A stretch of 64,000 bases of DNA from Lachnospiraceae bacterium. GTDB taxonomy: Bacteria; Bacillota; Clostridia; Lachnospirales; Lachnospiraceae. Made by a program: the position numbers and the translations under genes. Below the pieces are notes generated by a model. The model did not search any database, had not been told where the DNA came from, and worked only from the letters and a program-made list of their open reading frames with translations. Location of the stretch: assembly GCA_024693845.1 (NCBI GenBank), contig JAILKJ010000016.1, forward strand, positions 1 through 64,000. Reading direction: 5' to 3'. Shown here in pieces: positions 53,109-64,000 of this stretch. Within the stretch, counting starts at the first letter, position 1; each line of letters starts with the position of its first letter.

Positions 53109-54386
53109 ATGAGTGATTACAAGCTGAATACCAAATGTGTACAGGCAGGCTACAGGCCGGGAAACGGGGAGCCCAGACAGATCCCCATCATCCAGTCCAC
53201 CACCTTTAAGTATGACACCAGCGAGGATATGGGAAAGCTGTTTGACTTAGAGGCAAGCGGATACTTCTATACCAGACTGCAGAATCCGACCAACGATTAT
53301 GTGGCTGCAAAGATCGCAGAGCTGGAAGGCGGCTGTGCCGCAATGCTCACCTCCTCCGGACAGGCTGCTAACTTTTTTGCCCTGTTCAATATCTGTGAGT
53401 GCGGCAGTCATATCGTATCTTCTTCTTCGATCTACGGAGGCACTTTTAACCTGATCGCCGTAACGATGGCAAAGATGGGGATCGAGGTAACCTTCGTTTC
53501 TCCCGACTGCACCGAGGAAGAGCTCAACGCGGCATTCAAGGATAACACCAGAGCGGTCTTCGGAGAGACCATTGCCAATCCCGCACTTACGGTTTTGGAT
53601 ATCGAAAAGTTTGCAAAAGCTGCCCATGATCACGGTGTACCTCTGATCGTAGACAACACCTTCCCTACTCCCGTGGGCTGCCGTCCCATCGAGTGGGGTG
53701 CCGATATCGTAACCCATTCCACCACCAAATACATGGACGGTCACGGAGCCGCTGTCGGCGGTGTGGTAGTGGATTCCGGTAACTTTGACTGGATGGCACA
53801 TGCAGATAAGTTCCCCGGTCTGACGACGCCCGATGATTCCTATCATGGTATCACCTATGCGGAGAAGTTCGGTAAGGAGGGCGCTTTTATCACAAAGGCA
53901 ACCGCCCAGCTGATGCGTGACTTCGGCTGTATCCAGTCTCCCCAGAATGCCTTCATCCTGAATCTCGGTCTGGAATCTCTCCATGTGAGAATGCCCAGAC
54001 ATGTGGAGAACGGACAGGCTGTCGCTGAGTTCCTTGAGAAGCACCCGAAGGTAAAGAAGGTAAGTTATTCCGGACTTCCCTCGGACAAGTATTATGAGCT
54101 TGCCCAAAAATACCTTCCCAACGGCGGCTGCGGCGTAGTTTCCTTCGAGCTGGAGGGAGGAAGAGCTGCGGCAGAAGCCTTCATGAAAAAGCTGAAACTG
54201 GCAGCGATCGAGACCCACGTGGCAGATGCCAGAACCTGCTGCCTGAATCCTGCCACCTCCACCCACAGACAGATGACGGACGAGCAGCTTGAGCAGGCAG
54301 GTATCCCTGCCGGATTGGTACGTATGTCCTGCGGTCTTGAGGACAAAGAGGATCTGATCGCAGACCTTAAACAGGCGCTGGAGTAA
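53109..54386 (+). CDS. O-acetylhomoserine sulfhydrylase (MetY-like)
   Basis: The 425-residue protein belongs to the Cys/Met-metabolism PLP family. It has TKCVQAGYRPGNGEPRQIPI at the start, SGYFYTRLQNPTNDYVAAKI (near 50), LTSSGQAANFFALF (near 80), VDNTFPTPVGCRPIEWGADI (near 180) and the cofactor Lys in HSTTKYMDGHG (near 206). It is expected to make homocysteine from O-acetylhomoserine and sulfide. The ATG at 53109 follows GGAGTAAGGAAA; a longer frame overlapping yhaM is not coding. No SAM riboswitch fits in the 37-base gap upstream. Confidence 0.93.
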   Translation: MSDYKLNTKCVQAGYRPGNGEPRQIPIIQSTTFKYDTSEDMGKLFDLEASGYFYTRLQNPTNDYVAAKIAELEGGCAAMLTSSGQAANFFALFNICECGSHIVSSSSIYGGTFNLIAVTMAKMGIEVTFVSPDCTEEELNAAFKDNTRAVFGETIANPALTVLDIEKFAKAAHDHGVPLIVDNTFPTPVGCRPIEWGADIVTHSTTKYMDGHGAAVGGVVVDSGNFDWMAHADKFPGLTTPDDSYHGITYAEKFGKEGAFITKATAQLMRDFGCIQSPQNAFILNLGLESLHVRMPRHVENGQAVAEFLEKHPKVKKVSYSGLPSDKYYELAQKYLPNGGCGVVSFELEGGRAAAEAFMKKLKLAAIETHVADARTCCLNPATSTHRQMTDEQLEQAGIPAGLVRMSCGLEDKEDLIADLKQALE

Positions 54387-54506
54387 GATAACCGTTTGAC
54401 CGAATAGACATTTGAAACGACCGAATAAACCGGATGCATTGTTTTTCTTCCGCCGGCGTGGGAGAATGAAAATGGATCCGGTTCGGTCTGAAAAGGAGGG
54501 AAACCT

Positions 54507-54983
54507 ATGGCTGAAATGGTGGATATTGAAGTCATCCTGGATGACCATTATCTGGATCCCAAGATTTCGATCTATACCAAGAGTGAAACAAAACAGGTTG
54601 AAAATATCATCTATGCCATTGAGAATACGTCCTACCATCAGTATCCTCCGCTTCCCGTACACAGGGATAAGAGCTACAAGGTCATATCCCAGAGGGATAT
54701 TTACAGGATCCGTACGCAGGGGCGTGATGTTATGGTGGATACCAGGGATGAGTCCTATCTTCTGAAGGGCTCCATGTCTGCCGCCGAAGAGATCCTGGAT
54801 GAAGAGCGTTTTTTCAGGATCTCCCAATCGGAGATCATCAACCTGTACAAGGTAGATACCTTCAGCTTTGACCAGACGGGTACGGTGGGAGTTGTATTTG
54901 ATAATGCTGTGACAAGCTGGGCGTCAAGAAGATGTGTGAAACCGCTTCGTGACAAACTGGCCAAACGGTTCGGCCGGATCTAG
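54507..54983 (+). CDS. LytTR-domain DNA-binding regulator
   Basis: The 158-residue protein has a short N-terminal region and a LytTR DNA-binding domain from about residue 55 (SQRDIYRIRTQGRDVMVDTR, EERFFRISQSEIINLYKVDT, SRRCVKPLRDKL). There is no receiver domain. In many Firmicutes such regulators pair with a small membrane protein that restrains them; here a DUF3021 gene follows after 17 bases. Upstream lies a 120-base gap. Confidence 0.93.
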   Translation: MAEMVDIEVILDDHYLDPKISIYTKSETKQVENIIYAIENTSYHQYPPLPVHRDKSYKVISQRDIYRIRTQGRDVMVDTRDESYLLKGSMSAAEEILDEERFFRISQSEIINLYKVDTFSFDQTGTVGVVFDNAVTSWASRRCVKPLRDKLAKRFGRI

Positions 54984-55000
54984 CGAAAGGAGGACCTGAG

Positions 55001-55459
55001 ATGAGTCTGAAACAAAGATTTATATATAAGGCTTCGATCGGTTTTGCGCTGGGTGTATTTGTCACGATCATGTTTTATCTGATCCATCTTTTATCCGGTG
55101 GTTATTCCGAGAATATAGTAGCAAAGGATTTTCTGTCTGAGCTGGTGATCCAACTGTTTTCCGGCGGGATGATGGGCGTTATCGGCAACGGAGGGTCTGT
55201 GATCTACGAGATCGATCACTGGAGCATTATCCGGACAACCGTAACGCATTTCTGTCTGGCCTTCTTTACCTTCCTTGTACTCGGCCTTCTGAACGGATGG
55301 CTGGAGCCCGGGCTTACTCTGTTCAATATCATTATGATCCTTAGCTGGATCACGGTGTATTTCATGATCTGGATGATACAGTATCTGATCTACAAAAAGG
55401 AAGTCGATCAGATCAACCGCGGCGTAAAACTGCTCAAAGAAAGCAAAGAAGCGTCATAA
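55001..55459 (+). CDS. DUF3021 membrane protein, partner of the LytTR regulator
   Basis: The 152-residue protein has four membrane helices (near 12-30, 42-62, 78-98 and 104-128) and a charged C-terminal tail. It matches the DUF3021 family, typically encoded beside a LytTR regulator. A role in membrane control of that regulator is likely by analogy with LytTR-inhibitor pairs. AAAGGAGGACCTGAG precedes ATG. Confidence 0.88.
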   Translation: MSLKQRFIYKASIGFALGVFVTIMFYLIHLLSGGYSENIVAKDFLSELVIQLFSGGMMGVIGNGGSVIYEIDHWSIIRTTVTHFCLAFFTFLVLGLLNGWLEPGLTLFNIIMILSWITVYFMIWMIQYLIYKKEVDQINRGVKLLKESKEAS

Positions 55460-55483
55460 GTTTTATCATGTATATGTTAAACA

Positions 55484-55514
55484 ACACCCCGGCCTGTGAA
55501 AGGCCGGGGTGGTT
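55484..55514. terminator. Bidirectional terminator between DUF3021 and Rpn-like genes
   Basis: An 11-base-pair stem, CACCCCGGCCT (55484-55494) with its complement at 55500-55510, has loop GTGAA. It lies between convergent genes and has T-rich flanks on both sides. The same hairpin recurs at 62178-62204. Confidence 0.85.
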
Positions 55515-55517
55515 ATA

Positions 55518-56471
55518 TTATAGCATTGCCGTACTTCCTCCCAAGCGGATGATTTCTTGCTTGAGCTTTTCGATCATGATTGTATTATTCTTTTCCATTT
55601 GCTTCATCTCTTCGCTGAGGGCTTTGATCTCCTCATTCTTTTCTCTTTCCTTTTCTGCTATCGCAGCATTCACAGCCTCTTCTTTTTCTTTTTCAAACAG
55701 CATACCCACTCTGGTCATGGCGATCCTCCTTCTGATCATGGTTATCATTTCATCCGTAAATACTTTGTTTCCCCATATGGCCATTCCTGACAGAAGAAAC
55801 TTTCTTTGATCATCATCTTTTATCTTATCCGTTAGTGCTAGCATCCTTTTGCCGAGAATCCTTTTTTCTTTAGAGCTCGGTGCGGAAAGCGGAACAATTA
55901 TGTACTTCATCAGTTCCTCCTCATTCAGCACCTCCCCGGCAAAAACCTTTTTCTCAATTGTTTCTACTATCTCATCCTTGGGAAGGTCCGACAGAAATGC
56001 TTCTTCAGTCTCAAGACGGATGCCCCCGATATCAAGGACCGGTTTCGTCCGGCCTCTTTTCACGTCACCGGTATATACTACAATGATTCTCACCTTAGAC
56101 GGAATCCTGCCCTTCCATTTCTTTCGCAGCTGATTCAAGTGTTCCTGTGCTTCCGAGGATAATCTGTCATCTGCCTTCATCCCGGCATAATAGGTAAGGA
56201 TCTGTGTGACATACCGAAGATACTTGATCTTATTATAGCGGTCATATTTGCTTTCGTTATCCAATACACAGATGGAAGCGTCTTCCAGCAGATAGATATT
56301 GTCTGCAAACTGGTCTCTTGCCAGAACCTCCGGCAGCTCCACATTCAGAGGCCGGCTGATCCTCGGAATCTGAATACCGTATACAGCCAGTGATTTCCCA
56401 GCCATGCTCTGTGCAAAATACTTGGACAAAATGTCCCTGTTGTGATGCGATACGCCTTCCTGCATAAACAT
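55518..56471 (-). CDS. Rpn-family (PD-(D/E)XK nuclease-like) protein
   Basis: The 317-residue protein resembles the Rpn recombination-promoting nuclease/transposase-like family. An N-terminal nuclease-like part has DNIYLLEDASICVLDNESKYD (near 57), where the ESK could be the E-x-K of a PD-(D/E)XK site, and then YLRYVTQILTYYAG. A C-terminal coiled coil rich in Glu/Lys follows (EKEREKNEEIKALSEEMKQM). AAAGGGGCG lies directly before the ATG. It is monocistronic. Assignment is by motif memory. Confidence 0.65.
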   Translation of the reverse strand: MFMQEGVSHHNRDILSKYFAQSMAGKSLAVYGIQIPRISRPLNVELPEVLARDQFADNIYLLEDASICVLDNESKYDRYNKIKYLRYVTQILTYYAGMKADDRLSSEAQEHLNQLRKKWKGRIPSKVRIIVVYTGDVKRGRTKPVLDIGGIRLETEEAFLSDLPKDEIVETIEKKVFAGEVLNEEELMKYIIVPLSAPSSKEKRILGKRMLALTDKIKDDDQRKFLLSGMAIWGNKVFTDEMITMIRRRIAMTRVGMLFEKEKEEAVNAAIAEKEREKNEEIKALSEEMKQMEKNNTIMIEKLKQEIIRLGGSTAML

Positions 56472-56576
56472 CGCCCCTTTCCTTTGATGTACGGGAAAGA
56501 TGCGACATCAATTTATCTCTCCCGCCTGCATTGTTACTTTGGAATCTGCAGCGAGAGAATTAGAACATTAAAAGAA

Positions 56577-56604
56577 TGTCAGAATATAAATGAATTGTCA
56601 GAAT
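56577..56604. repeat. Direct repeat TGTCAGAAT upstream of the Rpn-like gene
   Basis: TGTCAGAAT occurs at 56577-56585 and 56596-56604, a spacing of 19 bases, in an AT-rich gap between the Rpn-like and XRE genes. It could be an operator or part of tandem promoters on the minus strand (each gives a CTGACA). Confidence 0.4.
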
Positions 56605-56700
56605 TTCCTTCGCTGTGACTGTAGAATAGCATAGTCTGAGGGTTGATACAAGAGGAAATACCTCATATAGATAGCAGTACGCCGAAAAGATTACTTTTTA

Positions 56701-57042
56701 TTATTTGCGGTAGCCGCGTATCTTCAAAAAAAGATTGATGTATTCCAACAGCAGATATGCTTCCTGCTGGTCTTTCTTTTGTAAGATTTCGATTATCGTA
56801 TTTGGGATATAAGCGATAGAATCATCGATTTGTTTTCCGCGAATCAGATAGTCCAAGGAACAGTCAAGTATATCGCAGATGTGAACAAGCTTGGGAATTG
56901 AAAAGGAAGATCGCCCACTTTCAACGGCGCTTATATGTTTTACAGTTACATCAAGTAATTCTGCAAATTCTTCCTGTGTCATACCGCGGTCATGTCTAAG
57001 AAGACTGATGCGGTCACCGATATCTTTGTAGATTTGATCCAT
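56701..57042 (-). CDS. XRE-family transcriptional regulator
   Basis: The 113-residue protein has an N-terminal helix-turn-helix of the Cro/CI type: GDRISLLRHDRGMTQEEFAE, then LLDVTVKHISAVESGRSS. It has a short helical C-terminal half. The ATG at 57042 lies 13 bases after AAGGAGG; a TTG at 57054 is too close to that site. It is divergent from the SPFH gene cluster, with 227 bases between start codons, and is the obvious candidate regulator of that cluster. Confidence 0.88.
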   Translation of the reverse strand: MDQIYKDIGDRISLLRHDRGMTQEEFAELLDVTVKHISAVESGRSSFSIPKLVHICDILDCSLDYLIRGKQIDDSIAYIPNTIIEILQKKDQQEAYLLLEYINLFLKIRGYRK

Positions 57043-57142
57043 ATCGTAATACAAACCTCCTTAAAACGGTTACAAAAACTGCAGTTGTCTGATCCGTTCT
57101 ATTCCTTTATTTTACGGACGAAAACTTCTTTCAAAAACTATA

Positions 57143-57179
57143 AATACGTATTGTGAGGGAAACCTCGTAGGTGTATAAT
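57143..57179 (+). promoter_or_regulatory. Promoter of the SPFH cluster with overlapping palindrome
   Basis: TTGTGA (57151-57156) and TATAAT (57174-57179) are 17 bases apart. The perfect palindrome AATACGTATT (57143-57152) overlaps the -35, and GAGGGAAACCTC sits in the spacer. Both could be operators for the divergent XRE protein. The leader is about 85 bases. Confidence 0.75.
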
Positions 57180-57269
57180 AAATAGCGTAGTTGTGTATGA
57201 TTTTTGAACATAGTAATAGTTCGGATTGATTGTTTTGAATATTTGAATATTTTCATAAGGAGGTCAGCG

Positions 57270-58640
57270 ATGGGATTACTACACAGCGATAATCCAAAAG
57301 AAAAGGATCACAAAGGTGTTTTAGGTGCTTTTTCAGTCGATGTCATCAAGTGGGAACCGGAAGACGATGTGCAGGCTGGGATTGTGGCGCATAAGTTTGA
57401 GTATGAGGATTTTCCCAACGGCTCTTATTTGATCGTCAATCAGTCACAGATGGCTGTTTTCACCAATAACATGACCGCCGGCAATTCCCTATCGGCAAAC
57501 GGAGAGGGACAGGCGCAGGTATCCACCTTCATCGGACCGTGCAAGATCAAGCTCGAGACGGGTGACAGCAGGTTTGCTCCATTCCGCAACATTTCACATT
57601 CCCTGACTGGCGGAGAGTCCGCATTCCACAGCACGGTCTACTTTATCAACACGACATTCATGAATGAACTCAACTGGGGCACGCAGGCGCCGGTTGTATT
57701 GCAGGATCCGGAGGAAGAGGTCAATGTTCATGTAAGGGCCTTCGGTCTTTTTGGCGTGCATATCGAGCAAGTGGATACGAATGAAGCCGTGATCGATGCG
57801 AGGAAATTCCTGCAGAAGATCGTCGGTACCAGGGCAGACTATACCCGTTCGGAACTGGTGGATTTTATGCGCGCCAAGATTCTCGAATATGTACCCGACC
57901 TTCTGGCAAAGAACATGATCAATGAAGGGATAGGCATTTTGCGAATCAGCACCAAGCTCAAGGAATTTTCGGAGACGATCTACAGCGAGCTGAAGGACCA
58001 CTTCAAGGAGTTCGGCCTGACGCTTGATAATTTCTCCTTCCATAATATCAATGTTCCGGATTCCGATCTCAATGCGCTCAATGAAGCGAAGATCAAACGG
58101 AAAACAGCCCGTCTTGAAGCTGAGGGCACTGCGGCAAAAATGGATATCGAGTCCGCTGCAAGAGCCAGGATGCGAGAGCGCGAAGGTTATACTTATCAGC
58201 AGGAGCAGGCATACGGCGTTATGCAAAATGCCGCTTCTAATACCGGCTCTGCCGGGGGCTTCATGGGAATGGGCATGGGCCTTGGTATGGGCGTCGGAGT
58301 CGGCGGTGCCATGGGAATGGGAATGAATGACATCACCCGCAGTACCATGTCTGCCATACAATCTCCTGGCGGTATGCAGGGGATGCAGCCTGCGCAAAGC
58401 GGTGGCATTACCTGCAGCAAATGCGGCAAGATCAATCCCGATGGAGCACGTTTCTGTTTGGAGTGCGGCGAGAGCTTTGCACCGGCAGGTGCAGTTTGTC
58501 CTTCCTGCGGGAAAGAACTGGTTCCTGGTGCCAAGTTCTGTTTAAACTGCGGCGCGAAACTGGTGCTTCAGTGTCCGAGCTGCGGCGAGGAGCTGCCGGC
58601 AGGTGCGAAATTCTGTCATAAATGCGGCGGGCAGATCTGA
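57270..58640 (+). CDS. YdjI-like SPFH-domain protein with C-terminal zinc ribbons
   Basis: The 456-residue protein has an SPFH/Band-7 domain (about 40-240; NGSYLIVNQSQMAVFTNNM, VNVHVRAFGLFGVHIEQ) and a coiled stalk (about 260-320). A Gly/Met-rich linker (GFMGMGMGLGMGVGVGG) leads to three zinc ribbons at the C-terminus (CSKCG/CLECG, CPSCG/CLNCG, CPSCG/CHKCG). Databases often call this type virion core protein, but B. subtilis YdjI is its bacterial counterpart. The family is thought to assemble on membranes under stress. The ATG at 57270 has AAGGAGG 6 bases upstream. It leads a five-gene unit. Confidence 0.88.
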   Translation: MGLLHSDNPKEKDHKGVLGAFSVDVIKWEPEDDVQAGIVAHKFEYEDFPNGSYLIVNQSQMAVFTNNMTAGNSLSANGEGQAQVSTFIGPCKIKLETGDSRFAPFRNISHSLTGGESAFHSTVYFINTTFMNELNWGTQAPVVLQDPEEEVNVHVRAFGLFGVHIEQVDTNEAVIDARKFLQKIVGTRADYTRSELVDFMRAKILEYVPDLLAKNMINEGIGILRISTKLKEFSETIYSELKDHFKEFGLTLDNFSFHNINVPDSDLNALNEAKIKRKTARLEAEGTAAKMDIESAARARMREREGYTYQQEQAYGVMQNAASNTGSAGGFMGMGMGLGMGVGVGGAMGMGMNDITRSTMSAIQSPGGMQGMQPAQSGGITCSKCGKINPDGARFCLECGESFAPAGAVCPSCGKELVPGAKFCLNCGAKLVLQCPSCGEELPAGAKFCHKCGGQI

Positions 58641-58680
58641 GGCTGCGGAAACTGAGCCTGTTTGAAAGGAGAGATAGTCC

Positions 58681-59382
58681 ATGAAAAATCAAAAGTTTTT
58701 TTTGTTCGGAGAGATCATGCTGGGTGTGATCTGGTTGATCGCAGGTCTGATCTTTGCACATTTTGAGACGTTCGGAAATTCCGAGGGACTTTACTGGACG
58801 GGGTATGTCTGTGGGATCGTTGCGATCGCGGTTGTCTGCCTTGTCACCTATCTTTGGGAGGTGCGGACCAATGCCGCAGTCGTGGAAGTCGGCTTCATGT
58901 CTGTTTACTTCGGTTTTATTTATCTGTTCCTTGCCCTTGCCTGCAATATCGTTTGCATGGCAAAGCGTTATGACCAAGGCATCAAGGTTGCGCTTTTCAT
59001 CAATCTCGTTTTACTGATCCTGTACATTGTCATGGTCTTTTATGCAAATAAGAACGTTACGCGGGTGACCGGGCAGCTTGAAGTGATGGCCGAAAAGACT
59101 GAGGCTTCCGGAAACATCAAGAGCATGATGGCAACGGTGCTTGGACTAGCGCAGAGTGAGACAGTAAAACAGAGACTCCGTGCATTGAAGGAAAAAACGG
59201 ATTATTCCGACAATCTTTCCCAGTTTTTTTCCGCTGATAAGGAAGACGAGTTTTATGACTGCATGACAGGGATCAAGCAGGCTCTTTTAGAGGACAGGAG
59301 TGATGATGAGATCTTGTCCATGATCGATGCGGCAGAAAAGATCTGGATCCAGCGTAATTCCCTGGTTTCATCTGCCAAGTAA
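58681..59382 (+). CDS. Four-helix membrane protein of unknown function
   Basis: No family is recognised. The 233-residue protein has four membrane helices (near 9-28, 38-58, 68-91 and 101-121) and a cytoplasmic helical domain of about 110 residues (LGLAQSETVKQRLRALKEKT, EDEFYDCMTGIKQALLEDRS). AAAGGAGAGATAGTCC precedes ATG. It lies 40 bases after the SPFH gene and 14 before the zinc-ribbon gene, so it belongs to the unit and may be its membrane anchor. Confidence 0.8.
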   Translation: MKNQKFFLFGEIMLGVIWLIAGLIFAHFETFGNSEGLYWTGYVCGIVAIAVVCLVTYLWEVRTNAAVVEVGFMSVYFGFIYLFLALACNIVCMAKRYDQGIKVALFINLVLLILYIVMVFYANKNVTRVTGQLEVMAEKTEASGNIKSMMATVLGLAQSETVKQRLRALKEKTDYSDNLSQFFSADKEDEFYDCMTGIKQALLEDRSDDEILSMIDAAEKIWIQRNSLVSSAK

Positions 59383-59396
59383 ACGGAGATTGCCCT

Positions 59397-60203
59397 ATGG
59401 ATATGCTAGCATTAGAGTGCCCCGGATGCGGCAGCACGAACATACAATTTGATGCAAAATCCCGCAGGGTCATCTGCAACCAGTGCGGAGCGACAAATAC
59501 CTATTCCCGTACAAGTTTGAATGCGAGCGGAAAGGTCGTCTACGGCAAACGGAACGCAGTCACCAATTTCCTGGATGCCAAGTTTGACCTTGCAAGGCAT
59601 TATGCCTTAGATGTACTCAACATTTCCCTTGATCATGTGCCTTCTCTATTCATTGTGGCTTATTGCGATGAGTTCCGTGAAGGACGAAATGGAGAGATGC
59701 AGCGTTTTTTTTCCCAGATTCAGAACGTCCAGATTGAATATGATGAGTTGGTTGATCTAAGGCAGCTTTTTATGTCTTCCATCCAGCGGATGCAGGAATA
59801 TGAGGATGAGGTGCTCGGACTGCTCGGAAAGAACATGCAGGCGCCGGAGGATGAGCAGGAGCTGATGGAGTTTCTGGATATATTCTGTCCCTATCTGATT
59901 AGCAAGCGCACGTCGTCCTCTTTTCTTGGCGGGGAACTTTTAAAGCAGTATAAGGAAGCGGTACAACGTTACGGGATTCCGAAGACCTGTTTTGCGTTGC
60001 TTAAATCTATCGAAACCAACCCGGAATCGCCTTATGTGGGAAACACCTTTTATCTTCGGGCAAAGGCAGAATACTTTTTTGAGCATTATGTAAAGACAGT
60101 GGGAGAGGTACTTTCCCTGATGCCGGAAGGGGCATATAAGGAAAAATTCCTGCGGGCCTATCAACAGAAGGTATCTCAGTATCAACAGTCTATGAATGTA
60201 TAA
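59397..60203 (+). CDS. Zinc-ribbon helical protein of unknown function
   Basis: The 268-residue protein opens with one zinc ribbon (CPGCGSTN and CNQCGATN, residues 8-36). The rest looks all-helical and TPR-like (AKFDLARHYALDVLNISLDH, YLRAKAEYFFEHYVKTVGEV). No membrane segment is seen. The zinc-ribbon start resembles those of the SPFH and YdjG-like proteins nearby, which suggests a shared docking partner; that is inference. Confidence 0.78.
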   Translation: MDMLALECPGCGSTNIQFDAKSRRVICNQCGATNTYSRTSLNASGKVVYGKRNAVTNFLDAKFDLARHYALDVLNISLDHVPSLFIVAYCDEFREGRNGEMQRFFSQIQNVQIEYDELVDLRQLFMSSIQRMQEYEDEVLGLLGKNMQAPEDEQELMEFLDIFCPYLISKRTSSSFLGGELLKQYKEAVQRYGIPKTCFALLKSIETNPESPYVGNTFYLRAKAEYFFEHYVKTVGEVLSLMPEGAYKEKFLRAYQQKVSQYQQSMNV

Positions 60204-60218
60204 GAAGGGAGGATTATT

Positions 60219-61889
60219 ATGAGTGGAGTTGTTGATTCTGCAGCGATCAACGCTTTGAATTCGCGAGTTAAAAAAGTGGAGGACCGTACCACCAAGTTGG
60301 AAGGTATGATGGGGGACGTTAATGAAAATCTCCGGGAGATGAAGGGCTCGCTTCGGAATGTAGATACATCCTTAAAGCAGTTGATCGACGGCTTTAATCG
60401 AATGATGAACGAGCAGAAACGCACGGCCGACCTGCAGGGAGCTTTGACAGAGCTTGTCCGCGTGCGTCAGGAGATTGAGCAGCGGTTTGGCAATTACAAG
60501 ATCGTCCGGGAAAATATGCTCGGTATCCTGCAGGCAACAGATGTGGCTCTTGTCAAAAAGACAACAATCTCAAGGATCTCGGAAGAACTCATGCTTTCCA
60601 CCCCTGATTATTGGTTGGCACCCTGCCTGGTGGCGGTGGCTGCTTGGATCGGAAATGACAGGGATCTGGCAGATCGCGCGATCCGGGAGGCAATTAAACG
60701 TGATGAGGAAAAGACAGCCCTGACGATGGCGTTGATCTGCCGGCGTAATAACAGGGTGGATACCTGTTTTGAATGGCTTTCCATTTATTTCAGAAATCAG
60801 AGTGCTGCGAATTTTTCAGAGGGCAGTTTTGCCTATATCGATGCCTATGTGAATGGCATCTTCGGTGATGATGACAAACATATGTGTGATGATTACATCA
60901 CAAGATGGATCAATGAAATCCGCGGTAACAGCTCTAACTTCGAATCGGAGCAGGAGGAAATGTGGAAATCCTACTGCGAACGTTTTAAGATGCGGATAGG
61001 TGACCAGTATCCGCTTCTTGCACAAAATATCGTGGAGTTTCCGCAGATTGATGCCTATCTCGGTCGTATCGAATCGGTGGATTCTATCGCCGGCACCTTT
61101 ACGGGGATCCGCGAGGCTTACGTTGATCAGGATAACCTCAAGAAAAAAATTGACAGTAACCTGATCTCACTGATCAATCGTTTTGACGGCAATGAGATTC
61201 CGCTTCGAAATGAGGAAAGATTCCTATTGAGGGTAAAGGAGTTTAATGGAGATGTTGAACGAGCAAGGGCAGTCTGCGAGCAGGAAGAACGTGACCGGAA
61301 GGAACATACCCTTAATCTTGTGGAGCAGATGACCCATGCAATCATCTCTGACGATGATACGATCCCTTCCCAGAAAAAAACAGCCGTATCGTTTCTGAGC
61401 GGTTATATCAAGAAGGGATTTGATACCTATATCAATGAAAATAAGCAGAGCTTCCCCGAGCAGGTAACCATCAAGATGGGCGACTGGTCCGGACAGACTA
61501 CAGACGGTTCAAACATTCCTGCTCTGACGTCCCAGTATGAATCATACCTTCGTCAGTCCTGTGAACGGGAAAAGGCAGCGGCAACGACAAATAAGCCTCA
61601 AGGTCTAATGATCGGAGCGATCGTTGTAGGCGTGATTTCCTTGCTTCTTTTGTTTGGGGTTCCGTTCCTCGGAATCGTGGGCCTGATCGTAGCCGGCGTG
61701 CTTGCCTTTAACATGAACAAGGAAAAGAAAGAAATGGCACAAAAGATTCTTGACATTAATGCGAAGTATGAAGTCTTGATTGAGGACGGAAAAAAGACAA
61801 TTGCCCAAACCGCAACGCAATGGGTAGAGGCAAAAGAAGCCGTCGATCGATTTAATAATTCGCCGACAAGAGAGATCATTGCTTCTTGA
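60219..61889 (+). CDS. Coiled-coil protein with C-terminal membrane hairpin, unknown function
   Basis: The 556-residue protein is not recognised. It begins with a coiled coil (about 8-75; LNSRVKKVEDRTTKLEGMMG), continues as a helical domain with TPR-like features (ADRAIREAIKRDEEKTALTM, CFEWLSIYFRN), has two adjacent hydrophobic helices (about 463-500; GLMIGAIVVGVISLLLLFG) and ends with a charged helix. GGGAGG precedes ATG by 8 bases. It may hold the complex at the membrane. Confidence 0.8.
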   Translation: MSGVVDSAAINALNSRVKKVEDRTTKLEGMMGDVNENLREMKGSLRNVDTSLKQLIDGFNRMMNEQKRTADLQGALTELVRVRQEIEQRFGNYKIVRENMLGILQATDVALVKKTTISRISEELMLSTPDYWLAPCLVAVAAWIGNDRDLADRAIREAIKRDEEKTALTMALICRRNNRVDTCFEWLSIYFRNQSAANFSEGSFAYIDAYVNGIFGDDDKHMCDDYITRWINEIRGNSSNFESEQEEMWKSYCERFKMRIGDQYPLLAQNIVEFPQIDAYLGRIESVDSIAGTFTGIREAYVDQDNLKKKIDSNLISLINRFDGNEIPLRNEERFLLRVKEFNGDVERARAVCEQEERDRKEHTLNLVEQMTHAIISDDDTIPSQKKTAVSFLSGYIKKGFDTYINENKQSFPEQVTIKMGDWSGQTTDGSNIPALTSQYESYLRQSCEREKAAATTNKPQGLMIGAIVVGVISLLLLFGVPFLGIVGLIVAGVLAFNMNKEKKEMAQKILDINAKYEVLIEDGKKTIAQTATQWVEAKEAVDRFNNSPTREIIAS

Positions 61890-61938
61890 TCCGAAGCATC
61901 AAACTCGACAGATTAGCAGAAAATAAGGGGGTTTATCA

Positions 61939-62115
61939 ATGGACAACATGGGAGAAATAACGGAAATGAACGAACTGGATGAGCTTGAGTCAATGTTCGG
62001 CCAGAGTGAAGCGGATGTGGCAAAGGTGGAACAGGCCGTACTGAGCCAGAATGATGCAGTGCTTGAAGGGTTTGCAAGCTGTTTTCCTGAATGGGATCTG
62101 CACCCGCCGGTATAG
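61939..62115 (+). CDS. Small acidic protein (58 aa) ending PEWDLHPPV
   Basis: This short frame reads MDNMGEITEMNELDELESMF, continues as an acidic helix, and ends CFPEWDLHPPV. TAAGGGGGTTT lies just before the ATG. It is the last gene of the SPFH unit, 49 bases after the coiled-coil gene, and a strong terminator follows at 62178. The sharply different Pro/Trp-rich end looks like a binding or recognition tail. It could be an adaptor, inhibitor or signal peptide; no family is recognised. Confidence 0.7.
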   Translation: MDNMGEITEMNELDELESMFGQSEADVAKVEQAVLSQNDAVLEGFASCFPEWDLHPPV

Positions 62116-62177
62116 TAATAGGGAAGTGGACTTCCATCCGATAGAAGTGCGCTCCACCGGGTATATTTATATATAAA

Positions 62178-62208
62178 CACCCCGGCCTGTGACAGGCCGG
62201 GGTGATTT
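62178..62208. terminator. Terminator after the SPFH unit
   Basis: CACCCCGGCCT (62178-62188) pairs with its complement at 62194-62204 around loop GTGAC; two further pairs are possible. It sits between convergent genes and differs from the hairpin at 55484 by one loop base. Confidence 0.87.
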
Positions 62209-62216
62209 AGTTTCTA

Positions 62217-62660
62217 TCAGGTTTCTTCCTTGGGGCGGCGGTAGAACATCTTGTACTCCGTTTCCCCGAGGTCTTCATTTATCTCTTCATCGATCTTTAA
62301 GAAGCGCCGGTTCTCATAGAAGCGGACGGCGCCGAAATTGTTCTCAAATACGTGGAGCTCTATCACATCGTACAGCTCGGCAACATAGGCAAGCAGCCTG
62401 GTGCCGATCCCCTGTCCCCGGTAATCCTTTTCAACAAAGATCCCGCTGATATAACCCTCGTCCACACCGACGAAACCAACCACTTTTCCGTCGATCTCAT
62501 AGACATAGGTTTCGGTCTGGGGAATGAGACGGGAGACATATCCGAAATTCCTGTCCCAATAAGAGGCGGGGATGAAATCATGAGCCTCGATATTGCCGTC
62601 ATACCAGATCCGCATGACCTTTTTAAGATCAGGTTCGTAGTACTTTCTGATGATATCCAT
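62217..62660 (-). CDS. GNAT-family N-acetyltransferase
   Basis: The 147-residue protein has the GNAT acetyl-CoA loop in GIFVEKDYRGQGIGTRLL (near 73-90) and the later ELHVFENNFGAVRFYENRRF. Sequence around KYYEPDLKKVMRIWYDGNIE recalls the YjaB-like branch. The substrate is unknown. A TATAAT at 62729-62734 on the minus strand is a likely -10. It is convergent with the SPFH unit and divergent from the YdjG-like gene. Confidence 0.9.
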   Translation of the reverse strand: MDIIRKYYEPDLKKVMRIWYDGNIEAHDFIPASYWDRNFGYVSRLIPQTETYVYEIDGKVVGFVGVDEGYISGIFVEKDYRGQGIGTRLLAYVAELYDVIELHVFENNFGAVRFYENRRFLKIDEEINEDLGETEYKMFYRRPKEET

Positions 62661-62844: not shown

Positions 62845-63933
62845 ATGGCTAAAACAGTGGAATACAGATGTCCTTCCTGTGAAGGTCTGATGCGGTTTCT
62901 GCCGGGAAGTGAAACGCTGGTGTGCGAATACTGCGGCACGAAGATGACCGTTGAGGAGATGGAGGAGAGTCAGAAGGGCGATAAAAAGGTGCAGCTCGAG
63001 GGCTTTGATTTTGCTTCTCTCAAGGATCAGGCAACGGATGAAAACGCCATGGCCCTTCCCGTATGCTATTGCGAATCCTGCGCCGCAGAGCTGATCGCAG
63101 ACCTTGAACAGGTGGCCATCAGCTGTCCCTATTGCGGCAGCAGGGTGATGCTGTCGGACAAGGTATCGGGGCCGCTTCGGCCGGACGGTATCATTCCGTT
63201 TCAGTACGAATCTTCAGCACTGCCGGATGCCGTGAAAAAATATTACAAAGGTAAAAAACTCCTCCCCAAAGACTTTTTTTCAGCCAGCCGTATCGGCCAG
63301 GTGACGGGGATCTATGTTCCTTTCTGGATCTTTGATGGAAAGCTTAAGGGGAGCCTTCGGTACAAAGGGACCAAGACATCCTCAAGCCGGAGCGGGGATT
63401 ATATCGAGACCAGAACGGACTATTACCGGATCACAAGGGATGTTTCAATGGAGTTTGCCAATCTCCCGGTGGATACCAGTAAGAAAGTGGACGATGCGCT
63501 GATGGACAGCCTGGAACCCTTTGACCTGACCAAGGCCGTTCCCTTTGATATGGCTTATCTGGCAGGGTTTGCAGCGGACCGTTTTGATACGCCCAAAAGC
63601 ACTACGACCCGGCGGGCACAAAACAGGATGACAACTTCGGCGGCCTCCCTGGCCCAGGCCCAGGCAGGAGCCGGATACGGTAACGTGACCCGGGAAGGCG
63701 GCAGCCTGAAGACGGATCTGAAAGCAAAATACATGCTGTTCCCCGTCTATCTGTTTGATGTGAAATATAATGATGAGACCTACAGCTTTGCCTTTAACGG
63801 GCAGACGGGAAAGGTGGTAGGAAAGCTTCCGGTGGATAAAAAAGTAAGCCGAAGCTACTTTTTGACCAGGATGCTGATCCCGGCGGGACTCATTTTTCTG
63901 TGGTCATTGCTTACTTACTTTGTGGGATATTAA
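62845..63933 (+). CDS. YdjG-like zinc-ribbon membrane protein (copy 2)
   Basis: The 362-residue protein shares the layout of the protein at 29376: ribbons CPSC/CEYCG and CESC/CPYCG (residues 9-110), then RPDGIIPFQYESSALPDAVK, YKGKKLLPKDFF, GIYVPFWIFD, DDALMDSLEPFDL, SFAFNGQTGKVVGKLPV and a C-terminal membrane helix (LIPAGLIFLWSLLTYFVGY). It has one terminal helix where copy 1 has two, and a Ser/Thr/Ala-rich loop (near 255-275). In Bacillus, YdjG is encoded with a YdjI-type SPFH protein, and here the SPFH unit is 4 kb upstream. AAGGGGTATC precedes ATG. Confidence 0.85.
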   Translation: MAKTVEYRCPSCEGLMRFLPGSETLVCEYCGTKMTVEEMEESQKGDKKVQLEGFDFASLKDQATDENAMALPVCYCESCAAELIADLEQVAISCPYCGSRVMLSDKVSGPLRPDGIIPFQYESSALPDAVKKYYKGKKLLPKDFFSASRIGQVTGIYVPFWIFDGKLKGSLRYKGTKTSSSRSGDYIETRTDYYRITRDVSMEFANLPVDTSKKVDDALMDSLEPFDLTKAVPFDMAYLAGFAADRFDTPKSTTTRRAQNRMTTSAASLAQAQAGAGYGNVTREGGSLKTDLKAKYMLFPVYLFDVKYNDETYSFAFNGQTGKVVGKLPVDKKVSRSYFLTRMLIPAGLIFLWSLLTYFVGY

Positions 63934-63954
63934 GGGTTGTCTGAGGGATACGGG

Positions 63955-64000
63955 ATGAGAGCGAAGAAAGAACGCAAAAATATACGATATGGCATGGTTT
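63955..64000 (+). CDS. Start of a further gene (partial, runs off window)
   Basis: ATG at 63955 follows GAGGG by about 7 bases and opens MRAKKERKNIRYGMV, a basic beginning that would suit a membrane or exported protein. It starts 21 bases after the YdjG-like stop. Too little is visible to name it; in Bacillus the gene after ydjG encodes the TPM-domain membrane protein YdjH. Confidence 0.45.
   Translation, partial: MRAKKERKNIRYGMV

Follow-up and report, generated by a model that had tools for sequence, protein, structure and literature searches.

The question raised by the locus considered here is whether five adjacent genes of a gut Lachnospiraceae bacterium, most of them without any recognised family, encode a single system, and, if so, what this system does. 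The genes, encoding proteins P0001 to P0005, lie on the plus strand between positions 57270 and 62115 of the window, that is, of the whole analysed stretch of 64,000 nucleotides (assembly GCA_024693845.1, contig JAILKJ010000016.1, positions 1 to 64,000 of the forward strand). They are separated by 40, 14, 15 and 49 bp, and each has a plausible ribosome-binding site. A first-pass annotation had described a tight five-gene unit and suggested an undescribed membrane assembly. The five genes indeed form a genuine co-conserved unit, and this set was recently acquired. Our favoured explanation, with a probability of about 0.5, is an SPFH-scaffolded complex beneath the membrane, provided with a docking tail by P0005 and serving either in conflict with phages or mobile elements or in envelope stress.

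Conservation and co-inheritance of the five genes

Scanning the genome collection with a profile produced 17 loci in the Lachnospiraceae, Oscillospiraceae and other Clostridia metagenome-assembled genomes (MAGs), many of the loci being MAG contigs. Two are near-duplicates (L016 of L014, L023 of L022), leaving about 15. P0004 alone gave nothing in the genome scan, and the loci were recovered by a two-sequence alignment query. The P0005 gene is situated immediately 3' of the P0004 gene in all 17 loci, and the order SPFH (P0001), P0002, P0003, P0004, P0005 is kept wherever the contig is long enough, with differing flanks; the exceptions are L013, L014, L016 and L026. In L013, SPFH and P0002 are not detectable. 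P0002 has no BLAST match in the other three loci; in L026 it was recovered by a profile (L104, same contig, E=1e-43), and the fast divergence of this protein may explain the missed match. From L014 and L016 P0002 is truly absent, since the SPFH and P0003 genes directly abut there.

The SPFH protein, P0003, P0004 and P0005 retain 41–70% identity across loci, with the ratio of nonsynonymous to synonymous substitution rates (dN/dS) at 0.03–0.12. P0002 diverges fastest (21–29% identity, dN/dS 0.22–0.37). Purifying selection acts on every gene of the unit. The short open reading frame of P0005 is real, its dN/dS between close relatives being 0.03–0.06. The pairwise distances of the five proteins are correlated (r 0.70–0.91), with shared ancestry contributing partly.

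Co-occurrence was assessed in 394–397 sampled Lachnospiraceae. Three genomes scored 815–890 bits with the SPFH profile, all others no more than 225 bits; P0003 exceeded 400 bits in the same three genomes and reached at most 23 bits in the others; unit-type P0004 was confined to these three as well. The chance of one such coincidence is about 1e-7. The distribution is sporadic, about 1% of the sampled family. Since the families are individually unannotated, one might regard the genes as unrelated and neighbouring by accident. This is refuted by the constant order in about 15 loci, the exact co-occurrence in the sampled genomes, the correlated divergence and the strong purifying selection, and its probability is negligible. 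The genes lie on the plus strand as first placed, in an order kept far beyond chance, and the homologues are strictly co-conserved rather than scattered.

Recent insertion of the unit

In three congeners (G004, G001 and G005), about 35–125 bp separate the gene that ends at window position 54386 from the GNAT gene that ends at window position 62217. Since these congeners keep the flanking genes adjacent without the island at 54389–62223, the island is an insertion, and with it the five-gene set was recently acquired.

The proteins and the proposed assembly

P0001 contains a Band_7_1 domain (E=2e-29) and three Zn_Ribbon_1 stretches, and no hydrophobic or transmembrane (TM) segment was found in it. 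Its start was set at ATG 57270, not at TTG 57204. A second, distant SPFH-zinc-ribbon gene is present in the source genome (G000:C79:8006-9199, L002; 28% identity). P0002 has four hydrophobic, TM-like segments. P0003 starts with a TFIIB-like zinc ribbon followed by a TPR-like repeat, and its model is all-helical after the ribbon (mean predicted local distance difference test, pLDDT, 88); Foldseek gave no match to this model at E<=0.001, and VIA-align gave generic TPR matches. The P0004 model (pLDDT 80) features an N-terminal coiled-coil helix of about 100 residues, a helical repeat, a TM hairpin near residues 459–497 and a long C-terminal helix. The Protein Data Bank searches with P0004 and P0003 yielded only coiled-coil, generic TPR or designed repeats. 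P0005 has a net charge of -13. None of P0002–P0005 is above the Pfam or NCBIfam cut-offs or has a meaningful PHROGs match.

The domain searches, hydrophobicity and models agree with the initial description of the five proteins (an SPFH protein with three zinc ribbons, a four-TM protein, a zinc-ribbon/TPR protein, a coiled coil with a TM hairpin, and an acidic peptide). Two details had to be corrected. Membrane or membrane-assembly features had been ascribed to three of the five, and TM segments occur in only two, P0002 and P0004, the SPFH protein having none. Zinc ribbons are present both in P0001 and in P0003, as noted, but they differ in type.

In the favoured explanation, P0001 would oligomerise as an SPFH scaffold without a membrane segment of its own. 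P0002, by its four TM segments and conserved cytosolic tail, would most likely tether it, by analogy with YdjG and YdjH tethering YdjI. P0003 may be a zinc-ribbon/TPR adaptor recruited to the scaffold. P0004 would be a membrane-anchored coiled-coil/solenoid protein and form the second half of the system, mobile in its own right; P0005 would be the docking subunit dedicated to P0004, the near-invariant FPxWDLxPP tail bridging P0004 to a partner. If so, this tail offers a single-residue handle on the role of the assembly.

SPFH operons linked to TIR proteins

In the next-best SPFH clade, most of the SPFH genes precede a P0002 homologue (hmmsearch E 8e-20 for the best, weak for some), after which comes a gene for a protein with an N-terminal zinc ribbon. 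The window unit has the same triad. In several of these cousin operons the third protein is a zinc-ribbon-TPR-TIR protein with a variable C-terminus (TIR_2 E to 2e-12). P0003 aligns to the zinc-ribbon/TPR head of such proteins with modest confidence (hhalign 58%, E=1e-4), and would occupy their slot.

Four loci (L121, L122, L125, L126) have SPFH and zinc-ribbon-TPR-TIR genes, in three of them with a P0002-like gene in between, and may represent a candidate SPFH-TIR system. Some of the TIR proteins in these loci end in DUF6273 or a C-type-lectin domain.

The P0004–P0005 module and AAA-type systems

Homologues of P0004 with 25–32% identity are encoded by the Streptococcus satellite phage Javan368, by Comamonas and Komagataeibacter plasmids, and by a Fusobacterium genome. 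The genes for these homologues are always followed by genes for a small protein ending in [FL]PxW[DN][LI]xP, a protein of 150–190 residues, a p97-like AAA ATPase and, often, a protein of about 165 residues. Such AAA-type loci, without SPFH, are seen in Fusobacterium, Comamonas, Komagataeibacter, several Lachnospiraceae and Javan368. More Lachnospiraceae loci of this type adjoin genes for HerA-like ATPases, a glutamine-deamidase toxin domain or a TIR protein.

When the fetched loci (671 kb in total) were all scanned in six frames, the tail was found only in the P0005 equivalents and at the end of one P0004 homologue (G085); as the motif was derived from the same loci, the scan demonstrates its specificity and is not an independent discovery. 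The C-terminus of the G085 protein reads ...NFPPWDIKPL and represents a natural fusion to the tail of P0005 (L006 975 (-) / L010 9135-10745). In that genome, the stretch with this fusion is found twice, on contigs C34 and C40. If the module is defined as a P0004 homologue plus a protein with the motif at its end, encoded next after it or fused to it, the window unit contains it. As judged from these sequences, P0004 and P0005 make up a mobile, transferable module.

A long operon in G589 encodes an SPFH protein together with a clear homologue of P0002 (hhalign 97%, E=6e-11); it also has genes for a zinc-ribbon protein and a HerA-like ATPase, and three homologues of P0004 are accompanied by the 160-residue protein and the AAA ATPase. 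The window unit thus seems to combine two modules that are also found separately. It links the poorly understood bacterial SPFH (flotillin-like) scaffolds to TIR operons and to AAA-containing conflict-type systems via two small conserved modules.

The AAA neighbours bring in an alternative, a protein-quality or macromolecular-assembly machine, in which the SPFH scaffold and the TPR adaptor would collect membrane clients, to be passed by the PxWDL tail to a host ATPase or protease. SPFH/Band-7 proteins have been proposed to be chaperone-like scaffolds (PMC11237479), relatives of P0004–P0005 adjoin the p97-like AAA gene, and the G589 operon contains both SPFH and AAA parts. However, the unit itself lacks an ATPase, and the 160-residue companion of the AAA gene, present in seven of seven AAA-type or hybrid genomes, is found in none of the 15 carriers of the window-type unit. 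We consider such a machine improbable. The sub-membrane complex that we favour would do its work at the membrane with no AAA ATPase, in contrast to the related systems.

P0003 was considered as a relative of the 160-residue AAA-type protein, or of P0004, and is similar to neither. Matches of the AAA gene to IetA are attributed to the common AAA fold. One 5.9-kb contig (L064, G287:C31) belongs to a genome of a different phylum, yet its AAA gene shares 90% identity with the Comamonas gene; the contig is probable contamination and was not used as evidence. Proteins with acidic N-termini at L067 13076-14260, L070 2-625 and L101 14209-14952 are possible variable effectors of AAA-type P0004 systems: the L067 protein ends in a papain-fold glutamine-deamidase toxin domain, and the L101 protein weakly matches a metallopeptidase family.

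A possible role in envelope stress without PspA

In Bacillus subtilis, YdjI, YdjG and YdjH act together on the membrane, where the soluble YdjI is held by YdjG/H and gathers PspA (PMC8581546). P0001 is a YdjI-like SPFH-zinc-ribbon protein, and YdjG-like and TPM/YdjH-like genes lie 0.7 kb downstream of the unit (L012 2845-5931). The unit may be a Lachnospiraceae equivalent of YdjGHI, a PspA-independent envelope-stress system with no role in genetic conflict, which would repair the membrane or make it more fluid when antibiotics or alkaline conditions stress the cell. The history of the SPFH family and the adjacent genes lean this way. However, the YdjG-like and TPM genes constitute a second insertion, beyond the GNAT gene and outside the conserved unit; the pair is missing at this site in the congeners, being present elsewhere in their genomes, and does not stand beside the unit in other loci. 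It may be that the SPFH unit and YdjG/H were brought together recently. Moreover, such a sporadic distribution would be expected of accessory conflict genes more than of a core stress response. We regard a pure stress system as a possible but rather unlikely solution.

No PspA/IM30 is encoded in the source genome, the B. subtilis and E. coli controls being positive. It is present in four of 15 carrier genomes, and wherever the contigs of both are known it lies apart from the unit; the other 11 carriers lack it. This speaks against dependence on PspA, not against stress as such. Recruitment of PspA is rejected as the mechanism in the source genome, and because of this pattern the client of the scaffold would be a protein other than PspA: P0003, and P0004 via P0005. 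The favoured complex would then work at the membrane without PspA.

Evidence for and against a role in conflict

The trigger would be a membrane perturbation, most likely an attack by a phage or mobile element, possibly an antibiotic envelope stress. Several observations lean towards conflict: the TIR domains of the cousins, the DO-GTPase/tubulin/vWA company of a P0004 homologue (see below), carriage of the P0004 module by a satellite phage, and the sporadic, insertion-type distribution. The anti-phage option mentioned at the outset is supported by them indirectly.

Other results weigh against it. PADLOC-DB 2.0.0 has no convincing match for P0001–P0005, and no relatives were found on viral contigs. 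The unit has no recognised enzyme or toxin domain, and hence no evident abortive effector; the domain search gave no TIR match for P0003, and the SPFH proteins of the TIR-linked cousins score at most 225 bits, compared with 815–890 for the unit. The flanks (95 proteins, 15 loci) consist mainly of two-component, ABC and metabolic families (25 of 55 families listed). PADLOC matches there are mostly generic folds, with single matches to PDC-S01, PDC-S15 and PD-T4-6, in a scan run without a background set. With this proviso, no defence island is visible around the 15 loci, and guilt by association is rejected, the unit being surrounded mostly by ordinary chromosome genes.

A broader view may be offered tentatively. 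The unit could belong to a new class of bacterial membrane immune platforms with an SPFH scaffold, a four-TM tether and interchangeable zinc-ribbon/TPR effectors (TIR in the cousins), in which a transferable coiled-coil/PxWDL module would plug the same output into engines of either the SPFH or the AAA ATPase type, in different phyla and on a satellite phage.

Neighbouring genes and other features

The XRE gene (P0007), the P0008 gene and the LytTR/DUF3021 pair are found only in this island. A divergent XRE regulator does face the unit, as had been seen, but control by it is not supported as a feature of the system: no match to P0007 stands beside the unit in L013–L029. PADLOC matches of this protein reflect only its helix-turn-helix. 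P0008, previously taken for an Rpn-like nuclease, gave no match to an Rpn family at the thresholds applied in the Pfam, NCBIfam and PADLOC searches. No homologue of P0006 is situated beside the unit in other carriers.

Table 1. Coordinates of the unit and its surroundings in the window.
Feature	Position	Strand	Remarks
Lineage-specific insertion	54389..62223		LytTR and DUF3021-like genes, P0008, XRE gene, five-gene unit
P0007, XRE-family regulator	56701..57042	-	Divergent; HTH_3 E=5e-12
Candidate sigma-70-like promoter	57151..57179	+	TTGTGA-17-TATAAT; consensus scan only, regional site count not above shuffled expectation
P0001, soluble SPFH/Band-7 protein	57270..58640	+	Three C-terminal zinc ribbons (about 58413-58628)
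P0002, four-TM protein	58681..59382	+	Conserved cytosolic tail LKExxDYSxN ... IWxxRN
P0003, zinc-ribbon/TPR-like protein	59397..60203	+	N-terminal zinc ribbon (59418-59486), helical repeat
P0004, coiled-coil protein	60219..61889	+	Helical repeat, TM hairpin (about 61593-61709), long C-terminal helix
P0005, acidic protein	61939..62115	+	58 residues
P0005 C-terminal tail	62083..62112	+	FPEWDLHPP(V), common to AAA-type systems
Bidirectional terminator-like stem closing the unit	62178..62204		12-pair stem, both strands
YdjG-like gene (62845-63933) and start of TPM-domain (YdjH-like) gene	62845..64000	+	TPM E=4e-45; second gene runs to contig position 65931

Comparison with known systems

No description of the unit, the tail motif or the SPFH-TIR operons was found in the open-access literature (subscription journals being mostly uncovered), and four of the five gene families match nothing described.

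The B. subtilis pspA-ydjGHI (ydjFGHI) operon and the unit have in common a soluble SPFH protein with zinc ribbons at its C-terminus, membrane partners dedicated to it and a presumed sub-membrane assembly. Unlike it, the unit has no PspA; its membrane partners, P0002 and P0004, are neither YdjG (zinc ribbons, TM) nor YdjH (TPM), which are not in the unit; and it adds a zinc-ribbon/TPR protein and a PxWDL-tail protein. The flotillins FloA and FloT have the SPFH domain, whereas P0001 lacks an N-terminal membrane anchor or TM segment and ends in zinc ribbons.

The DO-GTPase/GAP1-N2 tubulin-vWA systems have been described as conflict systems (PMC7159879). In L068/L102, a P0004 homologue is encoded in one such operon with VWA, Tubulin_2 and DO-GTPase2 genes. 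However, genes for a GTPase, tubulin or vWA protein are missing from the unit, the domain search found no DO-GTPase, GAP1, tubulin or HSP70 domain in P0001–P0009, and the stretch of the L068/L102 operon that was read contains no PxWDL tail. Some 17 kb further along the same strand, L068/L102 also encodes the 160-residue companion.

The AAA-type systems have the P0004 homologue followed by the small PxWDL-tail protein, but in them the 150–190-residue protein, the p97-like AAA ATPase and often the ~165-residue protein replace SPFH, P0002 and P0003. In the SPFH-4TM-zinc-ribbon(-TPR-TIR) operons (L121, L122, L126), the first two genes are homologous to those of the unit and the third begins with a zinc ribbon and TPR; the differences are TIR and a variable C-terminus where P0003 has a helical domain, and the lack of P0004 and P0005. 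Hence the unit falls outside the PspA branch, the flotillins, the DO-GTPase systems and the PADLOC models, and in its working it is most like an SPFH sub-membrane assembly.

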